DNA of 64,000 bases from Streptomyces sp. CB02056 (GTDB lineage: Bacteria; Actinomycetota; Actinomycetes; Streptomycetales; Streptomycetaceae): NCBI RefSeq assembly GCF_001905545.1, contig NZ_LIPD01000027.1, positions 1 to 64,000 of the forward strand, given 5' to 3'. Positions within the stretch are counted from its first letter, which is position 1. Each line of letters starts with the position of its first letter. The translations under genes were made by a program, and so were the position numbers. A model generated the notes under the pieces. That model had not been told where the DNA came from. It did not search any database and worked only from the letters and a program-made list of their open reading frames with translations. Positions 32,330-35,544 of the stretch are shown in pieces.

Positions 32330-33064
32330 ATGCGCGGATGGCTGAAGGCCACGATCGGCCTGGCGGTGCTCTCCGGCCTGCTGCTGGGTGCGGACCGGAT
32401 CGCGGTGGGCGTGGCCGAGGACGAGGCCGCCGACCGGATCGTGAAGAGCGGCCGGATGAGCCAGCGCCCGGACGTCTCGATCGAGGGCTTCCCGTTCCTC
32501 ACCCAGGTGCTGTCGATGAAGCTGGACGACGTCCGGATCTCCTCCGACGGCCTGGCCGTCGGCGACGGCAGCCACCAGGTGGCGCTGCACTCGTTCAAGG
32601 CGCGGCTCGCCGGGGTCAAGGTCAGCGACAGCATGAGCAGTGCCACGGTGGACAGCGGCACCGGCAGCGGGGTGATCTCCTACCCGGACCTCGCGCAGCT
32701 GCTGCCGCCCGCCTCCCAGCTGCTGCACGGCGCCAAGCTGCCGGTGGGCGGCAACTCCCGGCTGAGCCTGGCCTACGCCGGTCCGGGCAAGGTCAAGGCC
32801 TCGCTGGGTCCGATCGAGATCGGCGAGGGCAGCGTGCGCAACAAGGGGAACACCGTCACGGTGGACGGCTTCCGGCTGAGCTCGCTGGCGGGGCTGGTGG
32901 CCGGTGCCACCAACCAGCAGCTGGAGCCGATGAGCTTCACCCTGGACTCGCTGCCGGCCGGGCTGAAGCTGGCCGACAAGGAGGGCGGGGGCGGCGGTGT
33001 GACGCCGCTGCCGGAGGGCCTCCAGCTGACCTTCGACGGCAAGGACGTCAAGCTCCTGGGCTGA
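32330..33064 (+). CDS. DUF2993 (LmeA-like) exported protein
   Basis: A 244-residue protein with an N-terminal hydrophobic segment (about residues 4-24) that serves as signal or anchor, followed by a beta-rich domain with ISIEGFPFLTQVLSMKLDDVRIS-like sequence (VSIEGFPFLTQVL, KLDDVRI). This is the DUF2993 family, which includes mycobacterial LmeA, a phosphoinositide-binding protein needed for mannosylated glycolipid maturation. A lipid-binding envelope role is inferred. It has its own upstream gap with tandem repeats and is followed by the Cys-leader/rhodanese unit. Confidence 0.82.
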   Translation: MRGWLKATIGLAVLSGLLLGADRIAVGVAEDEAADRIVKSGRMSQRPDVSIEGFPFLTQVLSMKLDDVRISSDGLAVGDGSHQVALHSFKARLAGVKVSDSMSSATVDSGTGSGVISYPDLAQLLPPASQLLHGAKLPVGGNSRLSLAYAGPGKVKASLGPIEIGEGSVRNKGNTVTVDGFRLSSLAGLVAGATNQQLEPMSFTLDSLPAGLKLADKEGGGGGVTPLPEGLQLTFDGKDVKLLG

Positions 33065-33070
33065 TCCAGG

Positions 33071-33103
33071 CCCGTCCCCGGCCCGTCCCCGGCCCGTCCC
33101 CGG
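33071..33103 (+). repeat. Three perfect tandem copies of an 11-base unit
   Basis: CCCGTCCCCGG occurs at 33071-33081, 33082-33092 and 33093-33103, with a partial fourth copy, starting 7 bases after the DUF2993 stop. The role is unknown. Confidence 0.88.
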
Positions 33104-33297
33104 CCCGGTCCCAAGGCCCGCCCACGGCTGTGCCGAATCGTTCCGCTCCGCGAGACGCGCTGTCCAGCGTGGGCCGTGGAGCGGTGTCGTTCGCGCCCCG
33201 CGCACGCCCTCCGGGGGCCGCCGGCCGGGCCCGGACAGGCCGGACCGGGGGTAAATCCCATCATCCGGTCGTTCTGATCCCACTATTCGATACGCTG

Positions 33298-33327
33298 ATG
33301 ACAGCGGGCCTCCGGTGTCCCTAGCAT
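33298..33327 (+). promoter_or_regulatory. Promoter of the Cys-rich leader and rhodanese
   Basis: ATGACA at 33298-33303 resembles the -35 consensus and TAGCAT at 33322-33327 the -10, with an 18-base spacer. The -10 ends 7 bases before the leader ATG at 33335, so the transcript should start at or next to the ATG (leaderless). Confidence 0.7.
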
Positions 33328-33334
33328 CGTCGGC

Positions 33335-33415
33335 ATGAAGCGACAGACGGACCTCACGAAGCGGCGGGCGGTAGACCTGTGCCGCGTGGCCGCCTGTCTG
33401 TGTCGAATGCGCTGA
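33335..33415 (+). CDS. Cys-rich leader peptide upstream of a thiosulfate sulfurtransferase
   Basis: A 26-codon ORF, MKRQTDLTKRRAVDL then CRVAACLCRMR, with Cys at positions 16, 21 and 23. It matches the actinobacterial leader-peptide type (basic start, VDLCRVAACLC ending) found before sulfur-assimilation genes. Translation through clustered Cys codons is thought to sense cysteinyl-tRNA supply and control the downstream gene. It appears leaderless (TAGCAT 7 bases upstream). A stable hairpin lies 46 bases after its stop, before the rhodanese at 33649, as an attenuation mechanism would need. Confidence 0.8.
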   Translation: MKRQTDLTKRRAVDLCRVAACLCRMR

Positions 33416-33460
33416 TTCGGCGCCCCCGGCAGGGCAGTTGACGCCCGCCGCCGATCTTTC

Positions 33461-33498
33461 CGGCGACCGCGCCCGGCCCCCCGGGCCGGCGGTCGCCG
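33461..33498 (+). terminator. Attenuator-like hairpin between leader peptide and rhodanese
   Basis: CGGCGACCG (33461-33469) pairs with CGGTCGCCG (33490-33498). Inside, GCCCGG (33471-33476) pairs with CCGGGC (33481-33486), with small bulges between the two helices. There is no U-tract, as is common in these genomes. The position suggests transcription or translation attenuation. Confidence 0.6.
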
Positions 33499-33648
33499 AG
33501 GTACTCCGCAGTCTCCTGCCCGGCCGCACCGGCCCACCCCCTCGTCCCGCTATTCGGACAGGGTTTCGGACCGCACCCTCCCGGGCACCCTGCAGCACCC
33601 TCCTGAGCAGCACCTTCCGCACAACCGCCCTCGGATGGAGAACCCACC

Positions 33649-34485
33649 ATGAGCCGCAGCGACGTCCTGGTCGACGCCGACTGGGTCCAGGCCCACCTGG
33701 ACGACCCGAAGGTCGTCATCGTCGAGGTCGACGAGGACACCTCCGCGTACGAGAAGAACCACATCCGCAACGCCGTCCGGATCGACTGGAAGCAGGACCT
33801 CCAGGACCCGGTCCGCCGCGACTTCATCGACCAGGCCGGCTTCGAGGCCCTGCTGAGCGCCAAGGGCATCGCCAACGACCAGACCGTCGTGCTGTACGGC
33901 GGCAACAACAACTGGTTCGCCTCGTACGCCTACTGGTACTTCAAGCTGTACGGCCACGGCGACGTCCGCCTGCTGGACGGCGGCCGCAAGAAGTGGGAGC
34001 TGGACTCCCGCGACCTGGTCGCCGAGGTGCCGGCCCGCCCGGCCACCGAGTACACGGCGCAGGCAGCCGACGCCTCGATCCGCGCCTTCCGCGACGACGT
34101 GATCGCCGCCATCGGCACCCTGAACCTGGTCGACGTCCGCTCGCCCGACGAGTTCTCCGGCAAGCTGCTCGCCCCGGCGCACCTCCCGCAGGAGCAGTCG
34201 CAGCGCCCCGGCCACGTGCCGAGCGCCCGCAACATCCCGTGGGCCAAGAACGCCAACGACGACGGCACCTTCAAGAGCGACGACGAGCTCAAGGCGCTGT
34301 ACGAGGCCGAGGGCATCGACCTGGCGAAGGACACCATCGCCTACTGCCGCATCGGCGAGCGCTCCGCGCTCACCTGGTTCGTGCTGCACGAGCTGCTCGG
34401 CCAGGAGAACGTCAAGAACTACGACGGCTCGTGGACCGAGTACGGCAGCCTGGTCGGCGTGCCGATCGAGCTCGGCAGCAACTGA
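33649..34485 (+). CDS. sseA: Thiosulfate/3-mercaptopyruvate sulfurtransferase (rhodanese)
   Basis: Transfers sulfane sulfur to an acceptor through a Cys persulfide. The 278-residue protein has two rhodanese domains. The N-terminal one is catalytically inactive (HIRNAVRIDW region), and the C-terminal one has active-site Cys233 in the loop YCRIGERSALTW. In S. coelicolor and mycobacteria the orthologue is also called cysA. It starts with ATG 233 bases after the Cys-rich leader ORF, which probably controls it, and is followed 37 bases later by the DUF1416 gene, a constant partner. Confidence 0.92.
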   Translation: MSRSDVLVDADWVQAHLDDPKVVIVEVDEDTSAYEKNHIRNAVRIDWKQDLQDPVRRDFIDQAGFEALLSAKGIANDQTVVLYGGNNNWFASYAYWYFKLYGHGDVRLLDGGRKKWELDSRDLVAEVPARPATEYTAQAADASIRAFRDDVIAAIGTLNLVDVRSPDEFSGKLLAPAHLPQEQSQRPGHVPSARNIPWAKNANDDGTFKSDDELKALYEAEGIDLAKDTIAYCRIGERSALTWFVLHELLGQENVKNYDGSWTEYGSLVGVPIELGSN

Positions 34486-34522: not shown

Positions 34523-34813
34523 ATGTGCGGTGCGAAGGCCGGCGGCCCGGACCTGGCAGGAGTTGACGTGGCGAACGAGACGATCATCCAGGGTTCGGTG
34601 ACCCGCGACGGAGAGCCGGTCAACGGCTACGTGCGGCTGCTGGACGAGGGCGGCGAGTTCACGGCCGAGGTGCCCACCTCGGCGACCGGCCAGTTCCGGT
34701 TCTTCGCCCGCCCGGGCAAGTGGACCCTGCGCGCGCTGGTGCCGGGCCAGACCGTGGACCGTCAGGTGGTGGCCTCCCAGGGCACCGCCGTCGAGGTCGC
34801 GATCGCGGTCTGA
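34523..34813 (+). CDS. DUF1416 family protein, partner of the rhodanese
   Basis: A 96-residue soluble protein that begins MCGAKAGGP, with a conserved Cys directly after the initiator Met. The rest is a beta-sandwich-like domain (GSVTRDGEPVNGYVRLLDEGGEFTAEVPTSATGQFRFFARPGKWTLRAL, in parts). The gene almost always follows the sseA/cysA-type rhodanese in actinobacteria, so a role as sulfur acceptor or stabiliser is plausible but unproven. AAGGAG lies at good spacing before the ATG. A strong terminator follows. Confidence 0.85.
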   Translation: MCGAKAGGPDLAGVDVANETIIQGSVTRDGEPVNGYVRLLDEGGEFTAEVPTSATGQFRFFARPGKWTLRALVPGQTVDRQVVASQGTAVEVAIAV

Positions 34814-35181: not shown

Positions 35182-35544
35182 TCAGTACACGAGCGCCTGG
35201 ACGTTGTCCGACATGATCTCGCTGACGAAGACCTGGGCGCCCGCGATGCGGACACCCTCGACGGTGTCCTGCTGCGTGATCCCGCGCCGGGCCGCGCACT
35301 GGGTGCACAGCGTCACCGAGCCGGCCGCCAGGATCGACTCCAGCAGGTCCGGCAGCGGCGCCGCGTGCGGCAGTTCGAACTCCGCGGCCCGGCCCGGCAG
35401 CGCGAACCAGGAGGACTCCCCGGTCAGCCAGAGCGAGACCTCGATCCCGCTGGCGACGGCCACCGCCGCCACCGTGAACGCCTGCGAGCACCGCTCCGGC
35501 GCGTCCGCCCCTGCGGTGACCTTGATGACCAGTTTCTTCGCCAT
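35182..35544 (-). CDS. DsrE-family protein
   Basis: A 120-residue DsrE/F-like protein, a family that carries sulfur on conserved Cys residues or acts as a small scaffold. MAKKLVIKVTAGADAPERCSQAF at the start (in parts) and VTLCTQCAARRGI with Cys80 and Cys83 are seen. Nearby rhodanese and DUF1416 genes support a sulfur-transfer context, though the strand is opposite. It is convergent with DUF3099 after 20 bases and divergent from the next small membrane protein gene. Substrate unknown. Confidence 0.82.
   Translation of the reverse strand: MAKKLVIKVTAGADAPERCSQAFTVAAVAVASGIEVSLWLTGESSWFALPGRAAEFELPHAAPLPDLLESILAAGSVTLCTQCAARRGITQQDTVEGVRIAGAQVFVSEIMSDNVQALVY

Follow-up and report, generated by a model that had tools for sequence, protein, structure and literature searches.

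Short leaderless ORFs with clustered Cys codons are a kind of regulatory leader already known from mycobacteria and named in public databases. The available text of PMC4633059 places a small, ribosome-occupied ORF of this type before the mycobacterial cysA2. In the parts available of PMC9031893 and PMC13236596, both of which cite Canestrari et al. 2020, such leaders are credited with Cys-dependent translational attenuation in M. smegmatis. NCBIfam holds two models that apply here, NF042933 (“Ms5788A family Cys-rich leader peptide”) and the broader NF042934 (“putative leader peptide”, cis_reg_atten). From streptomycetes, eight leader peptides are given in the accessible portion of PMC8079986, none of them ahead of sseA. 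Our literature searches found no report of a streptomycete sseA leader, and no paper under the name “Ms5788A”.

A leader of this kind was found ahead of a rhodanese gene, sseA, in the stretch of Streptomyces DNA analysed here (64,000 nt, “the window”). The promoter position, the conserved leader and sseA downstream of it are plain to see. We read the locus, with a probability of about 0.6, as an attenuator of the Ms5788A family that is leaderless, responds to cysteine, stands before sseA-DUF1416 and acts mainly on translation initiation; the predicted Cys attenuation of sseA is likely. The features of the locus are:

33298–33303, + strand: −35 box ATGACA (sequence and promoter scan)
33322–33327, + strand: −10 box TAGCAT, 7 nt ahead of the leader ATG
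33335–33415, + strand: leader ORF of 26 codons, MKRQTDLTKRRAVDLCRVAACLCRMR (NF042933 and NF042934 scores)
33366–33372, + strand: leader segment GGGCGGT in codons 11–13, complement of the pre-SD box
33395–33403, + strand: C-terminal Cys codons 21 and 23, separated by a Leu codon (mask folding)
33461–33498, + strand: strong hairpin, candidate role only (window z −3.16 against a genus mean of −1.30; T-run absent)
33624–33630, + strand: pre-SD box ACCGCCC (ACCGCCC in 70/70 genus loci)
33633–33640, + strand: Shine-Dalgarno (SD) region of sseA, GGATGGAG (sequence)
33649–34485, + strand: sseA/cysA2-type sulfurtransferase with two rhodanese stretches (PF00581, 1e-32)
34523–34813, + strand: DUF1416 protein (SseC-like), next gene after sseA (PF07210, 5.3e-38)

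The DUF1416 gene behind sseA is the one that we take to be SseC by name.

Promoter, leader and family membership

The leader starts with the ATG at 33335 and stops with the TGA at 33413–33415, 233 nt ahead of the sseA start. An 18-nt spacer separates ATGACA from TAGCAT, and this pair was the sole sigma-70-like site returned by a promoter scan of 33240–33700 (mean 0.0 in 50 shuffles). TAGCAT with a 7-nt gap to the ATG recurred in 70/70 genus loci, and an RTGACA −35 box lay 18 nt from the −10 box in 69/70 and 17 nt from it in 1/70. An earlier, sequence-only reading had proposed the promoter at exactly this spacing, as well as the order promoter, leader, hairpin, sseA. The promoter was confirmed by the sequence, the scan and the genus spacing, and all elements of the proposed order were found in place. 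The position of the promoter fits a transcript that starts on the leader ATG or directly beside it, which would make it putatively leaderless. The same reading had described a 26-codon ORF with three Cys codons near its end. The length and the number of Cys codons stand (codon 16, TGC, 33380–33382; codon 21, TGT, 33395–33397; codon 23, TGT, 33401–33403), but only two of the three are near the end, and none are adjacent.

Against NF042933 the leader scored 48.5 bits (4.9e-13; curated cut-off 45), and against NF042934 it scored 35.9 bits (cut-off 27). A comparison of the leader across relatives, to which the sequence-only reading had pointed, came out in its favour. At E ≤ 0.001 and with the own genome included, NF042933 matches were present in 70/70 genus genomes (37 above the cut-off), 297/297 sampled family genomes (63 above) and 267/394 sampled class genomes (49 above). 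The control genomes gave 0/14 matches in each ring (genus, family and class). Because the curated NF042933 cut-off is passed and the promoter spacing recurs in the genus, the ORF is, judged by sequence comparison, above chance and a real, conserved member of a known family. An Rfam riboswitch or leader family was rejected as its identity, with 0 matches to cis-regulatory RNA families at gathering score in the window.

Among the 210 leader loci picked by the NF042933 model, sseA was downstream in 209, comprising all 179 that passed a strict leader pattern and 30 of the 31 that failed it. The failing loci were inspected separately: 28 read KRRAVD(L/F)CR, L245 and L251 were variants, and in L253 sseA was present with no leader recovered by the pattern. 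In some loci, mycobacterial by look, sseA was ~600 nt off with an intervening gene. Searching from the sseA side, we found the leader within 600 nt in 78 of the best 80 named sseA loci. The untranslated stretch between leader and sseA measured 114 to 403 nt in these 78 loci (median 165), in many of them less than the 233 nt seen here. The best named sseA matches were Streptomyces sp. NRRL F-6131 and Kitasatospora sp. MAA19, both at 96%, a ranking from which very near records may be excluded; going by these matches, the DNA probably belongs to a Kitasatospora. By its gene content, the leader is placed at the cysA2/sseA operon type, where the mycobacterial leaders were described. The likeness to mycobacterial Cys-rich leaders that had been noticed from the letters is thus borne out by the NF042933 score and by the matching operon with a rhodanese gene. 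A locus of streptomycete type is thereby added to a family that has been functionally tested in mycobacteria.

With the M. smegmatis cysA2 operon, the locus shares the peptide core, a promoter positioned for a leaderless start and the cysA2/sseA-type gene downstream. It differs from the Ms5788A-type mycobacterial loci in its three separate Cys codons: of the 21 loci L138–L158, which we take as mostly mycobacterial, 18 have between three and seven Cys in a row (e.g., L138 and L142), and several of these 21 had another gene between leader and sseA. Mycobacterial polycysteine leaderless short ORFs have contiguous Cys codons. Since Cys16, Cys21 and Cys23 are separate, the window leader is not classed as one of them, although by analogy it would work like them.

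Masked folding and the sseA ribosome-binding site

According to the attenuator reading, a shortage of Cys-tRNA would make the leading ribosome wait at Cys codons 21 and 23, where it would mask the 3′-terminal third of the leader RNA. Masking would disfavour a fold that hides the SD region of sseA, and sseA translation would rise. With Cys plentiful, the ribosome would finish and leave, and the hiding fold would come back. Control would be exerted mainly at translation initiation, as reported for M. smegmatis, where Canestrari and colleagues are said to have found Cys-responsive translational attenuation in 2020, rather than at transcription termination.

We folded the leader, the untranslated stretch and 33 nt of sseA under a 30-nt ribosome mask, with SD accessibility as the readout. 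Fixed masks were scored in 140 of 141 family loci and a sliding mask in 59 of 60 drawn loci. With the mask at the last Cys, mean SD accessibility changed by +0.049 in the 70 genus loci (by more than 0.05 up in 28 and down in 3) and by +0.133 in the 70 family loci outside the genus (41 up and 5 down). A mask at the stop codon gave +0.027 (genus) and +0.042 (other family loci), and one at the first Cys or over the leader start lowered accessibility by 0.02 to 0.03 in both groups. The sliding mask peaked at A-site codons 19–21 in the genus (+0.084, +0.088) and 21–23 in other Streptomycetaceae (+0.156, +0.174), approximately the position of the C-terminal Cys codons; near the first Cys the change was close to zero or below it. 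In the genus it stayed between −0.012 and +0.007 upstream of the peak and between +0.018 and +0.054 after it. For the window itself, SD accessibility was 0.34 free, 0.27 with the mask at Cys16 and 0.44 at both Cys21 and Cys23; it was 0.44 at the stop codon too, and therefore a ribosome pausing there would act alike.

When foreign ribosome-binding sites (17, taken automatically from window ORFs) stood in for the sseA site, roughly one third of the effect was left in the genus and one quarter in the other family loci. Under the C-terminal Cys mask, own versus foreign sites gave +0.088 (se 0.012, n = 70) versus +0.031 (se 0.011, n = 140) in the genus, and +0.132 (se 0.022, n = 71) versus +0.034 (se 0.013, n = 142) in the other family loci, with standard errors that are too small because the loci share ancestry. 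A rise above 0.05 was seen in 37/70 genus and 42/71 other loci, and in 27/140 and 43/142 of the respective foreign combinations. From outside the family, 67 class-level loci were entered (29 of the 31 pattern-failing loci among them), and the 15 with sseA within 350 nt were scored; they showed no peak, with +0.027 at the C-terminal positions and +0.058 before the motif. The predicted SD-unmasking peak, seen in Streptomycetaceae only, is a further difference from the Ms5788A-type loci. In these models the unmasking effect is modest, exceeds that with foreign ribosome-binding sites, and was not seen in the loci scored outside Streptomycetaceae. Translational control, in which the fold of the leader RNA would govern the ribosome-binding site of sseA, appears better supported by these computations than a role for the hairpin downstream of the leader. 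What is new are the predictions that Cys21 and Cys23 act and that Cys16 does not. The level at which they are predicted to act is translation.

In 70/70 genus loci, ACCGCCC, the pre-SD box of sseA, is fully complementary to the leader stretch in codons 11–13. In the rest of the family, the Ala codon of this stretch is mostly GCA. Over the 141 family loci, GCA in the leader went with ACTGCCC in 53, GCG with a box containing T, which gives a G.U pair, in 8, and GCA with CCTGCCC or TCTGCCC in 5, two of which also had CGT before GCA. Five loci had no recognisable pre-SD box, and GCA with ACCGCCC occurred in 0 of the 136 boxed loci. GCA with ACTGCCC looks like a compensatory-type change. On a quick sseA tree, each side of the pairing changes only twice and an independent-pairs test has one or two pairs, and therefore the covariation is not proof. 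Complements of 7 nt also occur between non-partner leaders and sites, and GCA was paired with CCCGCCC in one named locus. The masked fold of the window contains this pairing of leader segment and pre-SD box, and yet its SD is slightly less closed, so that the pairing could act in either direction. The long-range GGGCGGT/ACCGCCC pairing is thus suggestive, and we treat it as a lead only.

Direct leader/RBS duplexes were no better matched than swapped ones in the genus (a share of 0.996 of the permutations at or below the observed value); a better match was seen only in the rest of the family, where this share was 0.012. Swapping leaders and ribosome-binding sites among six pairs of the own genome gave 3/720 permutations (0.004). 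In four other genomes, with automatic gene starts of which several look wrong, the values were 0.22, 0.80, 0.03 and 0.83 (30 of 34 matches entered; two lacked the motif and one a usable site). A general rule that would tie each leader of this kind by pairing to the site downstream of it was rejected, since the own-genome result was not replicated in three of the four other genomes.

The conserved peptide core

Codon-counting attenuators require the regulatory codons only. Across the class, the amino-acid conservation of KRRAVD(L/F)CR is, by our alignments, in excess of that need. Its amino acids are kept while synonymous sites vary, with pS 0.56 and pN 0.017 over 12 codons (LTKRRAVDLCRV), the pN being lowered because the loci were picked by a model of the motif and filtered by the pattern. 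These values come from 800 sampled pairs involving class-level loci, drawn from the 179 pattern-passing loci (141 family and 38 class). At positions that the pattern leaves free, K was kept in 177/179, A in 179/179 and C in 179/179 loci. Within the genus, the leader (pS 0.094, pN 0.018) and sseA (pS 0.129, pN 0.033) appear similarly constrained, the leader not much more.

Six other leaders of the same genome (L003, L005, L006, L007, L008 and L010) share the motif R..(V/I/L)DL.R and have between one and three Cys. The genes behind them are, by eye, a sulfite reductase, cysO-cysM, an acyl-CoA dehydrogenase-like gene, a cysteine dioxygenase, a 2OG oxygenase-like gene and an SsuE-like gene. L008 and L010 fall below the NF042934 cut-off, which five places in the genome pass, the window leader included. 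From motif and gene neighbours, these six leaders likely form a genome-wide sulfur set.

KRRAVD(L/F)CR, once in the exit tunnel, may predispose the ribosome to stop at the C-terminal Cys codons, in which case the peptide, beyond the Cys codons alone, would do the sensing. This is compatible with the attenuator reading, and we consider it rather unlikely, though worth keeping in view. The exchange of synonymous sites under constant amino acids, the nearly fixed K, A and C, the core kept in 28 of the 31 pattern-failing loci and the motif common to the six other leaders all speak for it. The choice of loci by motif model and pattern lowers pN, however, the leader is barely more constrained than sseA within the genus, and common descent of the paralogues partly explains the shared motif. 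In its full form, with a conserved core in the upper exit tunnel setting the pause at the C-terminal Cys codons and the paralogues forming a genome-wide sulfur regulon, the proposal is tentative. If it were true, the paralogues, which combine R..VDL.R with only one to three Cys, would be read by peptide plus codon, and a widespread actinobacterial leader set would act by nascent-chain pausing. New, too, is the case for putting this core itself to the test.

Hairpin, transcription termination and neighbouring elements

The sequence-only reading had put a stable hairpin after the leader stop and made it a control element. The hairpin at 33461–33498 has 16 pairs, a 2-nt bulge and a 4-nt loop, and its 65-nt segment folds at −35.4 kcal/mol (z −3.16 versus shuffles). 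Its stability holds in the window and fades in the genus, where the same segment had a mean z of −1.30 over 70 loci (z < −1 in 35, z < −2 in 21). The entire stretch 33335–33670 was no more stable than shuffles (z −0.45; 27/100 shuffles fold equally well or better). RNAalifold on the 70 genus loci gave a leader-internal fold, an SD hairpin and a few pairs to the sseA start, the middle being without a conserved fold. A T-run (6 T in 8 nt) at the hairpin was found in 0/70 genus loci, 33240–33700 contained 0 terminator-like sites, and no stem-loop with a U-tract was detected between leader and gene. With no T-run, no terminator-like site, 150 nt between it and the sseA start, and weak conservation, the hairpin was rejected as the main terminator or switch, and the control function ascribed to it is not supported; it is probably not the key element.

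The same results bear on attenuation of transcription, which we regard as doubtful. Here, leader GCGGCGGGCG (codons 9–12) would base-pair with CGCCCGCCGC, which lies directly behind the stop codon. With a ribosome held at Cys16 this duplex could not form, and the post-stop segment would be free to pair with the 5′ arm of the 33461–33498 hairpin and so prevent termination there. In its favour, leader and post-stop segment are perfectly complementary over 10 nt in the window, the predicted fold makes use of this match, and the hairpin is strong; the available text of PMC8079986 also interprets further streptomycete leaders as attenuators, of which several lack a U-rich stretch. Across the genus, however, the longest such complement varies between 4 and 11 nt (70 loci, mean duplex z −0.74), and the missing T-run and terminator-like site, the weak conservation of the hairpin and its distance from sseA all count against termination. 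Rho-dependent control, in which the position of the leader ribosome would set Rho loading on the untranslated 233 nt before sseA, is very unlikely: this stretch is C-rich by eye and slightly more structured than shuffles (mean z −0.73; 70 loci, 15 shuffles each), but it is shorter in many relatives, and a part for Rho is something we only infer.

The translational attenuator that we prefer resembles the trp/his-type attenuators and the streptomycete leaders in the accessible part of PMC8079986 in its putatively leaderless start and in codons that match the pathway product. It differs from them in that no U-tract terminator was found and in its peptide, which is conserved well beyond the regulatory codons.

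Two similar, conserved elements flank the leader, ATCCCACTATTCGATAC at 33277–33293, just upstream of the −35 box, and GTCCCGCTATTCGGAC at 33544–33559, in the untranslated stretch, the latter with inverted ends (GTCC/GGAC). Their patterns occurred in 67/70 and 62/70 genus loci, and in 24/70 and 11/70 other family loci, respectively. They are a possible operator pair for some regulator. At one mismatch, the promoter-side motif had one single further place in the genome, and therefore no regulon was found. Short tandem copies of GGCCCGTCCCC were seen by eye at 33069–33112, between an LmeA-like gene (32330–33064) and the leader promoter. A DsrE-family protein (35182–35544, minus strand; PF02635, 2e-10) faces the sseA genes, placing a sulfur-relay-like gene nearby. 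In Table 4 of PMC8079986, within the text available, the S. lividans “metL” leader before metNIQ is read as methionine-dependent; it ends in CMCRRMCAF, with three Cys, and a cysteine reading of it deserves a test.
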